Positions 55,961 through 63,169 of a stretch of 64,000 nucleotides of DNA are shown piece after piece. The DNA is from Aurantimonas marina. GTDB lineage: Bacteria; Pseudomonadota; Alphaproteobacteria; Rhizobiales; Rhizobiaceae. The stretch lies in the NCBI RefSeq assembly GCF_017183135.1, contig NZ_JADDXW010000007.1:62001-126000 (forward strand). Direction: 5' to 3'. How positions within the stretch are numbered: position 1 is the stretch's first letter; every line of letters begins with the position of its first letter. The position numbers and the translations under genes were made by a program. A model generated the notes under the pieces. The model was not told the origin of the DNA, did not search any database, and worked only from the letters and a program-made list of their open reading frames with translations.

Positions 55961-56440
55961 ATGGAAACGCTGGCCCCCGACATCGATATCAGGCGACTGC
56001 GCCTCAGCGACGCGCGCGATCTGGCACCGTTGATCTCGGCCTACAACCAGTCGCTTTTTCGCGGTGCGCCGGGGCCTCCGGACACCTATTACGCCGAGCA
56101 GCTGCTGCAGGACCGGACAGCGGAATTGCTCGGCGCGCGGCTGGATGGCGAGCTCGTCGGCTTCGTTCTGTTCTATGACATCCCGGATGTGTGGACCGGC
56201 ATGCGCTCGGGGCTCGCCGACCACATCTATGTGGATCATCGGCATCGCCGCAAAGGCATCGCCAAGGCGATGATCGATCTGCTTGCCGACGAGGCGGACG
56301 GGCGCGGCTGGTCGAAACTGGTTCTGCATTCGCCGAGGAATCCGGGCAATGGGCGCCGGCTCTATGAAAAGATCGCCGATCCCGCGGACTGGTCGAGCTA
56401 CGTGATCCGCTTTATCGACCGGGAGCCCCCGCCGACGTGA
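55961..56440 (+). CDS. GNAT family N-acetyltransferase
   Basis: A 159-residue acetyltransferase. It starts TLAPDIDIRRLRLSDARDLAPLISAYNQSLF. The acetyl-CoA motif is DHIYVDHRHRRKGIAKAMIDLLADEADGRGW (RRKGIA loop), followed by LVLHSPRNPGNGRRLYEKIADPADW. Subfamily and substrate are unknown; the size and text resemble SSU072-like small-molecule or amine acetyltransferases only in general. It lies 222 bases upstream of sdhC on the same strand and is probably not part of that operon. Confidence 0.88.
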   Translation: METLAPDIDIRRLRLSDARDLAPLISAYNQSLFRGAPGPPDTYYAEQLLQDRTAELLGARLDGELVGFVLFYDIPDVWTGMRSGLADHIYVDHRHRRKGIAKAMIDLLADEADGRGWSKLVLHSPRNPGNGRRLYEKIADPADWSSYVIRFIDREPPPT

Positions 56441-56662
56441 TTCGAAAGCAGCAAGGAAGGTGCCGGACCTGTCTGGGCGAGTTGCGCCCTCTTGCCGCGC
56501 CTAATCGATTAAGCTGGCCTCGCCGTCCCGACTGCGATGCGAGAGACTTGCTTTCGCAGTTGCGATAAGCCTTTTAGGGTTCATCCGATCGCGCTGTGCG
56601 GCGTGAGGCCTTTGCCTATATGCTGCGTGGCGCAAGGGAAATTCGAGGACGAGAGAGCACCG

Positions 56663-57055
56663 ATGTCCGACGCCCCACCCCCGCGGCCCCTCTCGCCGCA
56701 TCTCAGCATCTACAAATTCCGCCCCACCATGGCGATGTCGATTCTGCATCGAATCACCGGCAGCGCGCTTTACGTCGGCACGCTGTTCTTCGTCTGGTGG
56801 CTGGTCGCCGCGGCCAGTGGTCCTGAGGCCTTCTCCTATGCCTCGTCGTTTTTCGGCTCCATCGTCGGCCGGTTGATCTTGTTCGGCTACAGCTGGGCAT
56901 TGCTCCACCACATGTTCGGCGGCATCCGCCACCTCATCTGGGACACGGGGCACGGGCTTGGCAAGGAAACCTCGACCCTTCTGGCCCAGGCGACGCTGGT
57001 GGCATCGCTGGCCGTCACGCTGATCCTGTGGGTCGGCATCCTGGTCTTCGGTTGA
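56663..57055 (+). CDS. sdhC: Succinate dehydrogenase, cytochrome b556 subunit
   Basis: A membrane anchor of complex II, 130 residues with three membrane helices. The motif SPHLSIYKFRPTMAMSILHRITG is the family start. HMFGGIRHLIWDTGHG contains the probable heme-ligand histidine and the quinone-site region. The ATG at 56663 follows GAGAG; the in-frame upstream extension has no homology. sdhD starts 11 bases after the stop. Confidence 0.96.
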   Translation: MSDAPPPRPLSPHLSIYKFRPTMAMSILHRITGSALYVGTLFFVWWLVAAASGPEAFSYASSFFGSIVGRLILFGYSWALLHHMFGGIRHLIWDTGHGLGKETSTLLAQATLVASLAVTLILWVGILVFG

Positions 57056-57066
57056 GGGAGCGCGCC

Positions 57067-57447
57067 ATGACCGACATGAGAACACCTTTGCGCCGCGTCC
57101 GAGGTCTCGGATCGACGCGCGGCGGCACCGATCATTTCTGGCAGCAGCGGCTGACCGCCGTCGCCAACCTGTTTCTGATCAGCTTCTTCGTGATCCTCGT
57201 CATCGCCCTTCACAACGAGAGCTATGCGGATGTGAGAGCCGCCTTCGCTAATCCGCTCGTCGGAATCGCCATGGCGCTGGTGACCGTGTCGGCGGCGGTT
57301 CACATGAAAATCGGCATGCAGGTGATCATCGAGGACTATGTCCACGGCGATGCGAAAGTGCCGCTGCTCATCCTCAACACCTTCTTCGCGGTCGCCGTCG
57401 CCGGCGCGAGCCTGTTCGCGATCGTCAAGATGAGCTTCGGAGTCTGA
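57067..57447 (+). CDS. sdhD: Succinate dehydrogenase, hydrophobic membrane anchor subunit
   Basis: The second membrane anchor, 126 residues with three membrane helices. The block [23 protein letters not shown] has the heme-side histidine and the Asp-Tyr pair near the ubiquinone site. The start is the ATG at 57067 after GGGAGCGC. sdhA begins two bases after the stop codon. Confidence 0.95.
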
Positions 57448-57449
57448 CC

Positions 57450-59312
57450 ATGGCAACGAATGGAACCGCCGACGGCAATAGAGCCGGGCAGCCGCATCGC
57501 AGCGCCCCGGCCCAGAACGGCAAGGCCTATCCCGTTACCGACCACACCTTCGACGTCGTCGTCGTCGGGGCCGGCGGCGCCGGTCTTCGCGCGACCCTTG
57601 GCGCCGCGCAGGCCGGACTCAAGACCGCCTGCATCACCAAGGTGTTCCCGACGCGCTCGCACACCGTGGCCGCGCAGGGCGGCGTCGCCGCTTCGCTCGG
57701 CAACATGGGCAAGGACGACTGGCGCTGGCACATGTACGACACCGTCAAGGGGTCGGACTGGCTGGGCGACCAGGACGCCATCGAATATCTGGTGCGCGAG
57801 GCGCCGGCCGCGGTTTATGAGCTGGAGCATTTCGGCGTGCCCTTCTCGCGTACCGAGGATGGCAAGATCTACCAGCGGCCCTTCGGCGGTATGACCACCG
57901 ATTTCGGCCAGGGTCCGCCTGCCCAGCGCACCTGTGCCGCCGCCGACCGGACCGGGCACGCGATGCTGCATACCCTCTACGGGCAGTCGCTACGCCACTC
58001 CACCGAGTTCTTCATCGAATATTTCGCCATCGACCTGATCATGGACGAGGAGGGGGTCTGCCGGGGCGTGATCGCGCTCTGCCTCGACGACGGCACGCTG
58101 CATCGCTTCCGCGCCAAGAAGACGATCCTGGCCACCGGCGGCTACGGCCGCGCCTATTTCTCCGCGACCTCGGCCCACACCTGCACCGGCGACGGCAACG
58201 CCATGGCGCTCAGGGCGGGCCTGCCGCTGCAGGATATGGAGTTCGTGCAGTTCCACCCAACCGGCATCTACGGCGCCGGCTGCCTGATCACCGAGGGCTC
58301 GCGCGGCGAGGGCGGCTATCTCACCAATTCCGAGGGCGAGCGCTTCATGGAGCGCTACGCGCCGTCGGCCAAGGATCTGGCGTCGCGCGACGTGGTCAGC
58401 CGGGCGATGACGCTGGAAATTCGTGAGGGGCGCGGCGTCGGCAAGCAGAAGGACCACATCTTCCTGCACCTCGACCACCTCGATCCGGCGGTGCTGCACG
58501 AGCGGCTGCCCGGCATTTCGGAATCGGCAAAGATCTTCGCCGGGGTCGACGTGACCCGCGAGCCGATTCCGGTGCTGCCGACGGTCCACTACAATATGGG
58601 CGGCATACCGACGAACTATCACGGCGAGGTGCTGACCAAGAACGGCGGTAATCCCGATACTGTCGTGCCGGGGCTGATGGCGGTAGGCGAGGCGGCCTGC
58701 GTCTCCGTCCACGGGGCCAATCGGCTCGGCTCCAATTCGCTGATCGATCTCGTCGTGTTCGGCCGTGCCGCGGCGCTGCGCTGCGCCGAAACCGTCACGC
58801 CCGGCGAGGGCCACGCGCCGCTGCCGGCCGATGCCGGCGACAAGGCGATCGCCCGCCTCGACCGGTTCCGCCATGCCGCCGGCTCGACGCCGACGGCCGA
58901 ACTCCGTAACCGGATGCAGCAGACCATGCAGTCGAACTGCGCGGTGTTCCGCACCGGCGAGGTTCTGGAGGAGGGGCACCAGAAGATTCACGAGGTCTGG
59001 TCCGCCTCGGAAGATGTCAGGGTGACCGACCGGTCGCTGATCTGGAACACCGACCTCGTCGAGACGCTCGAATACGACAATCTGATCGCACAGGCGGTGG
59101 TGACGATGGATTCGGCGCGCAATCGGACGGAATCGCGCGGCGCCCATGCCCGCGAGGATTTCCCCGACCGCGACGACGCCAACTGGATGAAGCACACGCT
59201 GTCGTTCTGCGACACCGATGCCAGGACCGTGACACTCGAGGACCGGCCGGTGCATGCCTATACGCTGTCGAACGAGATCGACTATATTGAGCCGAAAACG
59301 CGGGTGTATTGA
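57450..59312 (+). CDS. sdhA: Succinate dehydrogenase flavoprotein subunit
   Basis: Oxidises succinate with covalent FAD. The protein has 620 residues. The dinucleotide fold [15 protein letters not shown] is near residue 32. The FAD-attachment histidine lies in [15 protein letters not shown], and the active-site segment [21 protein letters not shown] is intact. The C-terminal part ends [26 protein letters not shown], as usual. An N-terminal extension of about 25 residues ([15 protein letters not shown] type, polar) precedes the family start. The gene downstream begins 12 bases after its stop and is not sdhB: three other genes intervene. Confidence 0.98.
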
Positions 59313-59324
59313 TCGACAATCGGC

Positions 59325-60182
59325 ATGGCGGAATTTGGCAGGTGTAAGCTAACCGGGAAACACGGGCGATTGGTAAAGTCCCATATCATCCCCCGAGCCT
59401 TCACCGACCTTGTCTTGGACCATATTACCAGAGTCGAATATGGCTGTGGGTCCGATAGGCCGGTCGTCAGGAGAAGTAGCTGGTTCGACAACAAGCTGGT
59501 TACCAAAGAAGGTGAGGACATCCTTGCTCGGATCGATTCGGACGCGGTCAACGAAATAGATCGGCTCGGCTTGGCATGGCGTAGCTTTCCATTGACGGAA
59601 AATGCGGGGCGTTATTCGCTACCGGGCGCAGAGTTTGAGATTCTAACGCTTTATGATGTTAATTCGGAAAAGCTTAGACTATTCTGCCATAGTCTCCTGT
59701 GGCGGGCTAGTTTTAGTAGACGGTCGGAGTTTAGGGAAATTCGTATCGACCCAGTCGCAAAAAGAAAGCTGACGAACATTATTGTGGGAAGAGTTGAAGC
59801 GTCGCTTTCGGACTTCCCATGCTCGTTGATGCTGATAACGTCAATCGGGCAGCGGCATGTGCATAGTCCGTGTCGCGTGAAAATTCCTGTCTTTGGTTAT
59901 AACAATGAAACATACGCGGACTTAAAGGTATTTCGTTTCTTTGTAGATGGATTGATAATCTATACGGGCAGGAAATTGTCTGATAAAAATCTGCTGAAAT
60001 TTTGGGGCAATCGCGTAATCGGTGCATCCAACCAGCTTATGGTGCTGGGTAGAAAATTCGAAGGCTCTCGGCAGGAGGCAATGCTTAATTTCTTTCAGGA
60101 TGAAATGTCTGAAAAATTTCCGGAGAACGCGGCGCGCATCTATCAATACCTCAACAACGAGAAGCTCCGAAACGCGCCCTAA
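59325..60182 (+). CDS. Uncharacterised SHIIP-motif (HNH-like) protein inserted in the sdh operon
   Basis: A 285-residue protein whose DNA is visibly AT-richer than everything around it, with AT-ending codons (AAT, TTT, ATA, TTA), so it was probably acquired recently. The N-terminus CKLTGKHGRLVKSHIIPRAF resembles the treble-clef start of HNH-type nucleases (usually CxxC then SHIIP), but only one cysteine of the pair is kept. Later text includes RRSSWFDNKLVTKEGEDILARID and RLFCHSLLWRASFS. No further catalytic motif is evident, and the activity is unknown. No Shine-Dalgarno lies before the ATG at 59325, only 12 bases after sdhA, so it would depend on sdh transcription. Confidence 0.8.
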   Translation: MAEFGRCKLTGKHGRLVKSHIIPRAFTDLVLDHITRVEYGCGSDRPVVRRSSWFDNKLVTKEGEDILARIDSDAVNEIDRLGLAWRSFPLTENAGRYSLPGAEFEILTLYDVNSEKLRLFCHSLLWRASFSRRSEFREIRIDPVAKRKLTNIIVGRVEASLSDFPCSLMLITSIGQRHVHSPCRVKIPVFGYNNETYADLKVFRFFVDGLIIYTGRKLSDKNLLKFWGNRVIGASNQLMVLGRKFEGSRQEAMLNFFQDEMSEKFPENAARIYQYLNNEKLRNAP

Positions 60183-60311
60183 TTTTCGGGTCTAACCGTT
60201 ACAGAAGGGGGAACCGGTCTGCCACAACCCGTCCATTGCCCTAGATATTTCTCGGGCACCGGTGACCGGTCCGCTTGAGCGGCCGACATTCAGTCATTTC
60301 GGAGGAACTGC

Positions 60312-60965
60312 ATGAACCGATCAACAGGCGCCGGGCTCGCGGTAGTTGCCGCGCTCGCTCTGATGAATGCGCCAGCCCTTGCGCAATCGACGACCGAGGT
60401 GCCGAAGACCCGAAGTGAAGGGATTGCCGAGGCCGAAGCGGGTGGACCTGCGCAAGGAGTCCCGACGCCGACCAACCCAGCCGCGACGGAAACGCCCGAG
60501 AAACCGGCCGCTTCGGGCGGCGAGGCGAGCGATGCGACGGCCTCCGGTTCGCCGGCGGGCTCGGCGACGTCAGCGGCCGGGTCAGGTACGGTGGAGAGCG
60601 AGGGCAGCGCCATGCCGTCGAACGAGGTCGGCGAGAAATTCGAGCTGCCCCGCGTCAGCGGCGACAATCAGATCGAGATGATCGCGGGGCTCTGCGGCGT
60701 GCAGATGAAGCAGATGACGCCGGCCGCGTGCACCTGTCTTGCGACTGAAGCGATGAGCGAATTGTCAGACCCGCAGCGCGATTATCTGATTGCCAGTGTG
60801 GTGGCGCCGCCGGTCGCCGACCGCATGCTCAAGGACCGCCGCGTTAGCGAATCCGATCAGAAAACGATTTTCGCCTTCCTCAACACGACGTCGGACGCCT
60901 GCGCGACCGGAACGTTCGTTCCGGCACAGAACGGCAAGTCAGAGGCGCCGGCGCCCGCCAAATAG
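60312..60965 (+). CDS. Uncharacterised exported protein with Cys-containing C-terminal domain
   Basis: A 217-residue protein. Signal peptide residues 1-25 (LAVVAALALMNAPALAQS). A low-complexity Pro/Ala/Glu/Ser linker follows (about 26-115). A conserved-looking C-terminal domain (about 118-200) carries four cysteines: GLCGVQMKQMTPAACTCLATEAMSEL and TTSDACATGTF. I do not recognise the domain; four cysteines in an exported protein suggest disulfides. GGAGG precedes the ATG. It is located between the SHIIP gene and the App1-type gene, within the split sdh cluster. Confidence 0.75.
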   Translation: MNRSTGAGLAVVAALALMNAPALAQSTTEVPKTRSEGIAEAEAGGPAQGVPTPTNPAATETPEKPAASGGEASDATASGSPAGSATSAAGSGTVESEGSAMPSNEVGEKFELPRVSGDNQIEMIAGLCGVQMKQMTPAACTCLATEAMSELSDPQRDYLIASVVAPPVADRMLKDRRVSESDQKTIFAFLNTTSDACATGTFVPAQNGKSEAPAPAK

Positions 60966-60989
60966 TCCTCGCGACGGAAGGGGCCGGTT

Positions 60990-62204
60990 GTGAAGCGACC
61001 GGCCTTTCGTCCGCCAGCAAGATTTTTTCTCGCCGAGCCATCGCGCAGCCCTATCGTCTGCGCGATGGCTCACGACAAAATTCACGCGCTCGCGCACCGC
61101 GCCGAAAATCTATGGGACAGAGCTCGCTTCCGGGCGAAGCGGGCGACCGGCCTTCTGGGCACGCCGATTCTTCTGGCCTATCGCGGGTTTCAAACGCCGC
61201 ATGGGCTGTGGCTGCGCGGCCGGGTCATCGAGGATCAGGGCGTGATCTCGGCCGAACACTCCGAGTCGATCGTCGGCAATATGTGGCTCAGTCTCAAACG
61301 CTATGAGACCGACGAGGTCAGGGACGCGCGAATTGCCTATTCGACGGGCAGCATCACCGGCGAGGTGACGACCGACGAAGAGGGATATTTCGATCTGACC
61401 ATCGAACACCCCGCGCTGAGCGAGGCGGCCCCTTGGCTTCCCGTCGAACTGATCCTCACCGAAGTGCCGCATTACAACGTGCGGCCGCTGGGAGCGAAAG
61501 CGGAAATCCGCATCGTTTCGCCAAAAGCCCGGTTCGGCGTCATCTCCGATATCGACGACACCATCGTGAAGACCGGTGCCACCAATTTCCTCAAGCACTG
61601 GCGGACGGTGGCGGCGAATTCGGCCGAGAGCCGGACCGCTTTTCCCGGCGTCACGCACCTTTACCGCGGGCTCGCAGAGGGCGAGGCGGGCCCGCAAACC
61701 AATCCGATCTTCTATGTCTCGTCCAGCCCCTGGAACCTGTTCGATCTGTTCGAGCGCTTCATGGTGCTGCACGATATTCCGCTCGGTCCGATGCTTCTGA
61801 AGGATTTCGGCCTCGACGCCACCAAATGGCTGACGGGCGGCCATGACGACCACAAGCTGACGATGATCGAGCGGGTGATGGCAGCCCATCCGCAACTGCC
61901 ATTCGTGCTGGTCGGCGATTCCGGTCAGCGCGACGCCGTGATCTACGCCGAAGCGGCGCGCCGCTATCCGGACCGCGTCCTGGCTGTCCACATCCGCGAC
62001 GTGACGGCGGGGCACCTCGCGCAGGAGGCCGACGAGGGTGTTGCCAGCCTGAAGCGCGCCGGCGTAGCCGTCACCGTGGCGCCGACGCTAGAGGAAGCGG
62101 CGGTCCACGCCGCCGAATCGGGGCTGGCGCGACCCTCCGTTCTCGAAGAGGTTCGCGGGGCCATTGAACAGAGGCGCCGGGAGGAGGGCCGTGTAGACGG
62201 CTAG
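60990..62204 (+). CDS. App1-type phosphatase domain protein (DUF2183)
   Basis: A 404-residue protein of the Lipin/App1 phosphatidate-phosphatase-like family. The HAD-type catalytic motif DIDDTIVKTGATNF is central, with SSPWNLFDLF (motif II-like) and VLVGDSGQRDAVIYAEAARRYPDRV (motif III/IV-like) following. This gives the full set of residues for an Mg-dependent phosphatase. Fungal App1 dephosphorylates phosphatidic acid; bacterial substrates are unknown. The GTG at 60990 has a strong GGAAGG upstream; an ATG at 61065 matches the usual family start and is the alternative. It lies upstream of sdhB in the same direction. Confidence 0.9.
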   Translation: MKRPAFRPPARFFLAEPSRSPIVCAMAHDKIHALAHRAENLWDRARFRAKRATGLLGTPILLAYRGFQTPHGLWLRGRVIEDQGVISAEHSESIVGNMWLSLKRYETDEVRDARIAYSTGSITGEVTTDEEGYFDLTIEHPALSEAAPWLPVELILTEVPHYNVRPLGAKAEIRIVSPKARFGVISDIDDTIVKTGATNFLKHWRTVAANSAESRTAFPGVTHLYRGLAEGEAGPQTNPIFYVSSSPWNLFDLFERFMVLHDIPLGPMLLKDFGLDATKWLTGGHDDHKLTMIERVMAAHPQLPFVLVGDSGQRDAVIYAEAARRYPDRVLAVHIRDVTAGHLAQEADEGVASLKRAGVAVTVAPTLEEAAVHAAESGLARPSVLEEVRGAIEQRRREEGRVDG

Positions 62205-62389
62205 GCCGCCGGCCCTGGATAGAGGCCGCACGGCGACATGGAAGGGGGCGTCGCCTGCCGGCGGGGCCGGTTCGCATCGGCACCGCGCCTATTCGGACGA
62301 TCGGGCCACTCCTGCGCCGTTTCGTCTCTGGTGTTTTGCAGCGCACGCTTTATGTTGCGGCCAATCCAACCGGCACCGGATAAAGCGTC

Positions 62390-63169
62390 ATGGTCGAACT
62401 CGCCCTTCCGAAGAATTCCACGATCAACCACGGCAAGGTGTGGGACAAGCCGGCGGGGGCGACGAACGTCCGCGAATTCAAAATCTACCGCTGGTCGCCG
62501 GATGATGGGGAGAATCCTCGCACGGACACCTTCTACGTCGATACCGACGACTGCGGGCCGATGGTCCTCGACGCGCTGCTGTGGATCAAGAACCGGGTCG
62601 ATTCCACGCTGACTCTGCGCCGCTCGTGCCGCGAGGGCATCTGCGGTTCCTGCGCCATGAACATCGACGGTTCCAACACGCTCGCCTGCACCAAGGGCAT
62701 GGACGAGATTGCCGGGCCGGTGAAGGTCTATCCGCTGCCGCATATGCCGGTGGTCAAGGATCTGATCCCGGATCTGACAGTGCCCTACGCCCAGCTTCGC
62801 TCGATCGAGCCCTGGCTGAAGACCGAGACGCCGGAGCCGGAGAAGGAGTGGCGCCAGAGCCACGCGGATCGCGAGAAGCTCGACGGCCTCTACGAGTGCA
62901 TTCTGTGCTTCTGCTGCCAGACCTCGTGCCCATCCTATTGGTGGAACGGCGAACGCTATCTCGGCCCGGCGGTGCTGCTTCAGGCCTATCGCTGGCTGAT
63001 CGATTCCCGCGACGAGGCGACGGGCGAACGGCTCGACGATCTGGAGGATCCGTTCAAGCTGTATCGCTGTCACACGATCATGAACTGCACCCAATCCTGT
63101 CCGAAGGGGCTGAATCCCGCCAAGGCGATCGCCGAAATCAAGAAGATGATGGTCGAGCGCCGCGTCTGA
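62390..63169 (+). CDS. sdhB: Succinate dehydrogenase iron-sulfur subunit
   Basis: Carries the [2Fe-2S], [4Fe-4S] and [3Fe-4S] clusters that pass electrons from SdhA to quinone. The protein has 259 residues. Cluster cysteines lie in [38 protein letters not shown] and [14 protein letters not shown]. The start is the ATG at 62390. It is separated from sdhA by three genes and a 185-base gap, so it may have its own promoter. Confidence 0.98.

Follow-up and report, generated by a model that had tools for sequence, protein, structure and literature searches.

A gene of foreign composition behind sdhA in Aurantimonas marina, a candidate one-gene defence cargo of the SHIIP family

In the 64,000-nt stretch of Aurantimonas marina DNA analysed here (the window), the gene that immediately follows sdhA differs markedly from its surroundings. 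Where does such a gene come from, how might it be expressed from this position, and what could it do for the cell? The gene, denoted X below, is foreign in composition, has no match in the sister species, belongs to a family of related proteins and, in some relatives, shares its slots and neighbourhoods with anti-phage genes. We infer that X would be transcribed from sdh, may possess nuclease activity and may act against phages. Taken together, we consider it somewhat more likely than not that X is a horizontally acquired, solitary one-gene defence candidate, which occupies a small-cargo slot and is read from the sdh transcript.

Composition and expression of gene X

Gene X (positions 59325–60182, forward strand; GC content 48%) encodes an intact protein of 285 aa that could be aligned with 27 relatives. 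As the preliminary description had stated, its ATG start codon lies 12 nt past the stop of sdhA (57450–59312, forward strand), the upstream host gene for the succinate dehydrogenase flavoprotein (Pfam FAD_binding_2 and Succ_DH_flav_C). The comparison set for X comprised 48 further genes predicted in the window, taken from a mechanical, composition-filtered gene list. The GC content at third codon positions is 0.547, as opposed to a mean of 0.814 for the other genes (sd 0.047, minimum 0.711; z of about −5.7), the overall GC content is 0.483 (mean 0.653, minimum 0.601) and a codon-adaptation-like index is 0.386 (mean 0.673, minimum 0.559). The foreign composition and codon usage ascribed to X at the outset are thereby confirmed, GC3 and codon index falling outside the range of all 48 genes. 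X is present in a single copy in its own genome (4.03 Mb, 66 contigs).

A weak consensus scan of positions 56300–62500 returned no promoter-like sites; shuffled sequences yielded 1.5 by chance, and the scan therefore says little about the surroundings of X. The gene layout fits a reading of X from the sdh transcript, which is what we expect from the arrangement of the genes. With no promoter of its own found, X would be expressed via the sdh message.

The sdh locus in the genus Aurantimonas

The preliminary description placed X between GC-rich sdh genes on both sides. This has to be amended for the right-hand side, where two other genes intervene before sdhB. The first (60312–60965, forward strand) encodes a 217-aa protein that has no Pfam match; five of the seven sister species carry it at their sdh locus (G001, G002, G003, G004 and G006; genomes are denoted by G and loci by L throughout). 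The second (60990–62204, forward strand) encodes an APP1-type phosphatidate phosphatase domain protein (PF09949, E = 3e-46), the true start of which may lie downstream of the listed GTG. Its counterpart is present at the sdh locus of four of the seven other species (G001, G003, G004 and G006); in G002 no APP1 match was found at this locus. The gene for the iron-sulphur subunit, sdhB, follows at 62390–63169 (forward strand) and has a match in 40 of the 40 genomes searched, own genome included.

The order sdhC-sdhD-sdhA-(217-aa gene)-(APP1 gene)-sdhB is found in G003 and G004, the sdhD matches in the genus resting on a query read one base off. G001 shows the same order, save that there is no match to the sdhD query, and so does G006 where covered, with extra genes between the APP1 gene and sdhB. 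Three such genes are located at L039:1157-2860; judged by eye, we take them to be queE, queD and queC. In G005 and G007 the operon is split, with some 27 kb separating sdhA from sdhB and the two genes on opposite strands (G005:C1:43615-71618 and G007:C11:27335-55324).

X itself was found in none of the seven other species of the genus. Matches were present in two of the 60 genomes searched, its own and G022; among 52 further relatives G022 is thus the sole carrier, with the gene at another genome site and, judged by eye, beside an integrase-like gene. The possibility that X is fixed between sdhA and sdhB in most relatives, considered in the preliminary description, is not borne out by these counts.

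How far the 217-aa gene lies from the sdhA stop varies considerably within the genus, from 176–177 nt in G001–G003 to 553 nt in G004, 588 nt in G006 and 999 nt in the window. In G004 and G006, the longer spacers harbour small frames together with the terminal part of a VapD-like gene; that of G006 also has another short frame in its middle, to which no plasmid match was found. At L038:3003-3393 (G004) and L039:4919-5330 (G006), a short MTRIGH frame is accompanied by frameshifted or cut VapD-like remains. The VapD label derives from tblastn hits to plasmid genes annotated as 'virulence factor' (63.6% identity over 44 residues) and to a plasmid gene annotated as 'Endoribonuclease VapD' (55% over 40 residues); these pieces have no Pfam match. 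In the window, the spacer 3' of X (60183–60311, forward strand) closely matches the G004 and G006 spacers from about position 60253 onward, and the right edge of the insert therefore lies at most about 70 nt past the X stop. Judging from the contents of the G004 and G006 spacers, some members of the genus thus have a variable site for small cargo right behind sdhA, where X is the cargo of the window species. X would have landed there directly behind the sdhA stop codon.

A rare protein family with two branches

Searches of Pfam, PADLOC and NCBIfam with the window protein gave no match. Within PHROGs, two phage families to which no function is given were retrieved, phrog_19960 (E = 8.5e-10) and phrog_7075 (E = 4e-4), with best stretches of 67 and 148 residues of the window protein, respectively. 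Tblastn searches with X identified 11 plasmids (10 of Agrobacterium and one of Cereibacter). The same method gave no match among 50,697 phage records, and a weak scan of viral contigs with strict peptide patterns revealed no X-type proteins. A phage origin of X was rejected on account of these two results, yet both of the PHROG families, and a predicted phage protein described below, do resemble it.

A genome-contig scan seeded with the single X protein found nothing; an alignment of four members retrieved 24 loci in named genomes, and whole-genome searches added a few. The family is rare: it was found in three of 397 genomes of the order, and both of its branches together in eight of 398 genomes of the phylum, own genome included in each case. 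Among 198 genomes taken for Rhodobacteraceae there were two carriers, one of which appears by eye to be the L066 locus again, the other being a weak hit (E = 1.6e-5). The label Rhodobacteraceae for these genomes is suggested by a parE sequence 87% identical to that of Rhodovulum and by the Arenibacterium locus carried by G921. Of the plasmid-borne relatives, WP_010974301.1 (ATU_RS24120, Agrobacterium fabrum C58 plasmid At) belongs to the same family and branch as X, with 33% identity over 89% of the query; it is part of a defence-rich plasmid island, next to Qat and other systems, whereas X follows a core gene.

None of the 36 family members matched any Pfam family or any PADLOC model at E = 0.01; the case for a defence role of the family is therefore drawn from the company that its genes keep. 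Neither the SHIIP family nor the slot behind parE described below was mentioned in the literature at the level of titles and abstract openings, a coverage from which subscription papers and bioRxiv largely fall out and which is no proof of absence.

The family, named here after its SHIIP motif, comprises a zinc branch (eight aligned members) and the branch of the window protein (28 aligned members); two of the 24 loci, the broken L070 and L079, were left out of the alignment. The two branches align over 237 columns, i.e. nearly their whole length (hhalign probability 99.8%, E = 3e-28). Members of the zinc branch follow the pattern CxxC...(A/S)HIIP-like...CxxC(E/D), with both cysteines of the first pair in seven of eight rows (the eighth starts late) and the second pair in all eight. 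X carries the motif KSHIIPRAF, the histidine of which is H20. In the N-terminal CKLT...SHIIP stretch of X (residues 7–23; 59343–59393, forward strand), the alignment columns of C7, H20 and P23 are kept and C10 is replaced by threonine; in the degenerate second half of the knuckle (residues 55–71; 59487–59537, forward strand), D55, E64 and D71 are kept and the cysteines are replaced by T60 and G63.

These replacements are characteristic of the whole branch: C7 is kept throughout (a count that includes L077 by alignment of its broken start), and the other cysteine places hold T10 (27/28), T, I or V at position 60, and G63. X had been described as having a SHIIP start with one missing cysteine; the SHIIP start is real, but three of the four cysteines are gone, and from the entire branch rather than from one copy. 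H20 and P23 are present in 27 of the 28 rows (the exception being L077, with its broken N-terminus) and in all eight zinc-branch rows. D55, E64, D71, W126 and R127 are invariant within the window's branch, and H178, likewise in 28 of 28 rows, does not occur in the zinc branch.

Such conservation bears on whether X has a function at all. Purifying selection operates in one clade of X relatives, as dN/dS is 0.12–0.22 among L066, L071, L078 and the Cereibacter copy (dS exceeds 1 in the three pairs with L007), and the frame of X is whole over 285 aa, retaining H20, P23, D55, E64, D71, W126, R127 and H178. These data argue against X being neutral or decaying acquired DNA that serves no present function. 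In favour of decay, X sits on a long branch of the family tree and carries V179 at a position occupied by N in 27 of the 28 aligned rows, and Y213 at one occupied by H in 26 of them; X may therefore be decaying or altered. Relatives in ruins also exist: L070 and L079 are in pieces, the N-terminus of L077 is broken and a SHIIP-type frame of G213 contains a stop. On balance, we consider decay an unlikely account of X, albeit one to be taken seriously.

Predicted fold and resemblance to nucleases

The AlphaFold model of X (pLDDT 83.5, pTM 0.84) predicts strands at residues 4–6 and 13–20 around the CxxC place, and a strand (54–60) followed by a helix (61–81), an arrangement that is knuckle-like. 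The structure search for an HNH or treble-clef fold suggested in the preliminary description turned up no solved counterpart of the X model, neither with Foldseek at E = 0.001 nor at Z = 2 in a second comparison; this does not prove that the fold of X differs from those of solved nucleases. Within a library of predicted viral structures, the sole match at E = 0.001 was A0A8S5THI9, an uncharacterised protein of Myoviridae sp. ctMnh10, with a whole-length fold match to X (E = 2e-12, TM 0.62/0.66, 15% identity). For structure prediction, the alignment was used without L070, L079, L077, L073 (which contains unknown letters) and some further loci.

The closest approach to a known nuclease family is to HNH_5 (PF14279), which shares the CxxC...H-I-P stretch with the zinc branch (hhalign probability 90%, E = 1.6e-6); only 20 columns align, and the Asn/His end of HNH is unmatched. 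With three cysteines lost, the window branch aligns to HNH_5 at a probability of 2.9%. Position by position, X keeps C7 alone of the two CxxC zinc pairs, has H20 and P23 for the D/H-H-x-x-P histidine motif, and holds D55 and E64 (D in three zinc-branch members) at the places, assigned by eye, of the Asn and the final Asn/His. Membership in the HNH family was rejected on the profile, the cysteines and the fold match. As the motif is similar and a solved structural match is missing, we describe X as resembling HNH proteins in its motif and refrain from classing it with the HNH nucleases; the earlier term 'nuclease-like' thus stands for the motif and fails at the level of a significant HNH_5 alignment of the window branch.

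Genomic neighbourhoods of the relatives

The relatives of X recur in two kinds of setting, among defence or mobile genes and among core genes (not every locus was formally classified). On plasmid At of Agrobacterium C58, genes for QatC, QatD, a KAP protein, a restriction endonuclease, Fic and AbiEii-type proteins, as well as an ATP-dependent endonuclease-helicase pair, lie within about 18 kb of the relative. The Cereibacter plasmid copy has genes for multiubiquitin, ThiF (a weak E1-E2 match), DUF6527 and a BrnT-type protein nearby. HEC-03B (E = 1e-174) and HEC-03A lie beside X in L066, a PtuA/AbiL/OLD-like ATPase gene is next door to and divergent from X in L062, and a ThsA-like SIR2 protein is encoded about 3 kb away in L068. 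By eye, an NTPase-like gene ends 27 nt before X in L232; an integrase is encoded near X in L067 and a resolvase in L072. In L066 (5776-7622), the X copy lies 330–350 nt behind the HEC-03B/HEC-03A candidate defence pair.

In the core-gene setting, X of L058 is located 30 to 57 nt (depending on start choice) behind an O-methyltransferase gene near an rpoC-like gene, and in L230 an acyltransferase-like gene, judged by eye, precedes X by 48 to 150 nt. Other relatives lie near typA, gltX, uvrC or guaB, with a direction that is not always shared. An LprI-domain gene adjoins X at L061:8886-9524 and L072:8882-9826, perhaps by chance.

The suggestion that X is mobile or defence-related cargo is thus borne out by some relatives, which lie among defence and mobile genes, and not by several others, which lie between ordinary genes. 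Looking for homologues beside defence genes produced several clear cases, part of them in a selective scan of ten neighbouring proteins that were picked by eye for comparison with PADLOC and have no background rate; four of the ten had no match and one a marginal match only.

How far the moving unit extends can be seen from L066, L071 and L078, three copies that are 87–90% identical in DNA and whose flanking sequences next to X are dissimilar. Besides X, the roughly 1.03 kb that they have in common comprise about 150 nt upstream and 64 nt downstream of the gene, so the unit that moves seems to consist of X and its upstream region only. It includes no partner gene for X, which tells against a small addiction or stress module with X as its toxin or regulator, in a slot that takes any self-maintaining cargo. 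The VapD-like remnant in the sdhA slot of the sister species and the BrnT-type gene near the Cereibacter copy would fit such a module, which we nevertheless regard as distinctly improbable.

The slot behind parE

Three of eight Rhodobacterales relatives among the loci from the alignment scan (L059, L074 and L076) are located directly behind parE. The start of X overlaps the parE stop (TTGA) in L059 and L076, provided that the TTG starts are right, and lies 18 nt after it in L074. The parE genes of the three loci align at 77–80% in DNA, and in pairs with L059 the alignment ends at the stop; that of L074 and L076 runs on for about 100 nt and breaks off after the conserved SHIIP part of X. In a test that left out L077, the three X proteins did not form one clade (p-AU = 2.8e-11); pairs with L076 were rejected and the pair of L059 and L074 was not (p = 0.13). 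X therefore arrived behind parE at least twice, and possibly three times. By eye, a CWLC...SHMIP...YCNDCE frame with one stop, for which no start codon was identified, lies behind parE in G213 (L115:1968-2831), so that a gene of the zinc type may once have occupied this slot too.

To see what else lies behind parE, loci were drawn from the same family of bacteria regardless of X, taking the best 30 of 41 genomes for parE and likewise for typA; 28 and 29 of them, respectively, had at least 600 nt past the stop. A GC drop was defined as a GC content of these 600 nt at least 0.10 below that of the last 450 nt of the gene. Such drops were found in 13 of the 28 parE loci and in none of the 29 typA loci (Fisher's exact test, 1.5e-5; Mann-Whitney p = 7e-4); the threshold was fixed with the parE loci already in view, and the single control gene was chosen before its own loci were viewed. 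The main AT-rich frame runs with parE in ten of the 13 cases, often overlapping the stop or following it closely, and in the opposite direction in three (G803, G807 and G835).

Sixteen cargo ORFs were extracted from behind parE. Ten were scanned against both Pfam and PADLOC and four more against Pfam only, the latter giving one match, below its cut-off. Four of the ten match anti-phage families and six have no match. AbiTii in G804 has the same direction as parE (PADLOC E = 1e-40, Pfam E = 5e-38), as does PD-T7-4 in G823 (E = 9e-11), where the GC drop is 0.06 and which is thus outside the 13. HEPN_AbiU2 in G803 (Pfam E = 4e-18; no PADLOC match) and PDC-S31 in G081 (E = 1.5e-9; likewise outside the 13) run against parE and therefore cannot ride on its transcript; the parE slot does not always lend its transcript to the cargo.

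A motif derived from the right-hand edges of L059 and L076 recurred, with at most three mismatches, in six of 33 parE loci and in none of 29 typA loci; as a general right-hand boundary behind parE cargo it was discarded because of the former figure.

A lone gene with an HNH-like motif at an exact site behind sdhA or parE calls to mind a free-standing homing endonuclease, copied in by cutting the intact 3' ends of conserved genes. Intergenic homing genes of phages have the same layout, namely a lone gene directly behind a conserved gene. One enzyme should target one site, whereas L066, L071 and L078 lie in unlike flanks despite their DNA identity. Conversely, the site behind parE is common to X proteins of different clades and to other families such as AbiTii, so its attraction does not stem from a specificity of X itself; in addition, no Pfam homing family was matched. 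With near-identical copies in unlike sites and unrelated genes in one site, homing was rejected as the main reading and seems to us very improbable.

Slots of the same type, then, hold X (behind sdhA and parE) and AbiTii, AbiU2 and others (behind parE). By analogy, this suggests that X is probably cargo of the AbiTii/AbiU2 class, that is, a one-gene defence that would need no promoter of its own behind sdhA. Given that relatives of X and some anti-phage genes use the point behind parE, the location of X is also a less odd place for cargo than had been thought.

Proposed role of X

Returning to X as solitary defence cargo, its company and its motif point to a putative nuclease with a role in defence. 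The N-terminal part would form a knuckle-like, HNH/treble-clef-like unit with a His-Asp-Glu core (H20, D55 and E64) and a lost structural zinc site. The C-terminal part of about 170 residues appears, as far as searched, to be particular to the family. The likeliest job of such a protein would be single-gene anti-phage defence, in which the C-terminal part may sense or bind and the N-terminal part may cut or bind nucleic acid.

A broader and more tentative proposal, to which we give less than even credence, is that the 3' ends of parE in Rhodobacteraceae and of sdhA in this genus are integrase-free slots for interchangeable single anti-phage genes, mostly promoterless and transcribed by the host, and that SHIIP proteins form a new family of one-gene defences for which such slots are a frequent location. 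Cargo might enter by homologous recombination within the conserved host gene, with gene transfer agents as one possible carrier. Gene transfer agents carry fragments of a size that would fit such cargo. Their genes are reported to be well conserved in Rhodobacterales (PMC9836097).

Defence hotspots of the E. coli pan-genome likewise hold interchangeable defence cargo at fixed positions between core genes; there, mobile elements (e.g. prophages and transposons) mostly carry the cargo, and sites count as empty if they contain three genes or fewer (PMC10121019). Here, in contrast, the cargo is one gene right behind a stop codon. Being single genes with no integrase, inserts of this kind readily escape searches that look for defence islands or mobile elements. 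If the proposal holds, one-gene immunity would be swappable at the ends of housekeeping genes, co-directional cargo would be active at once through the transcript of the host gene, and the region right behind parE would offer an easy starting point in the search for new anti-phage genes of Alphaproteobacteria.

The loci with parE slots are L168, L169, L170, L171, L172, L175, L179, L180, L183, L186, L189, L190 and L115. Their unmatched cargo includes an alike-looking pair in G805 and G828, and a gene of G807 with the motif 'SVFINCPFDD', which has a shorter relative in G814.
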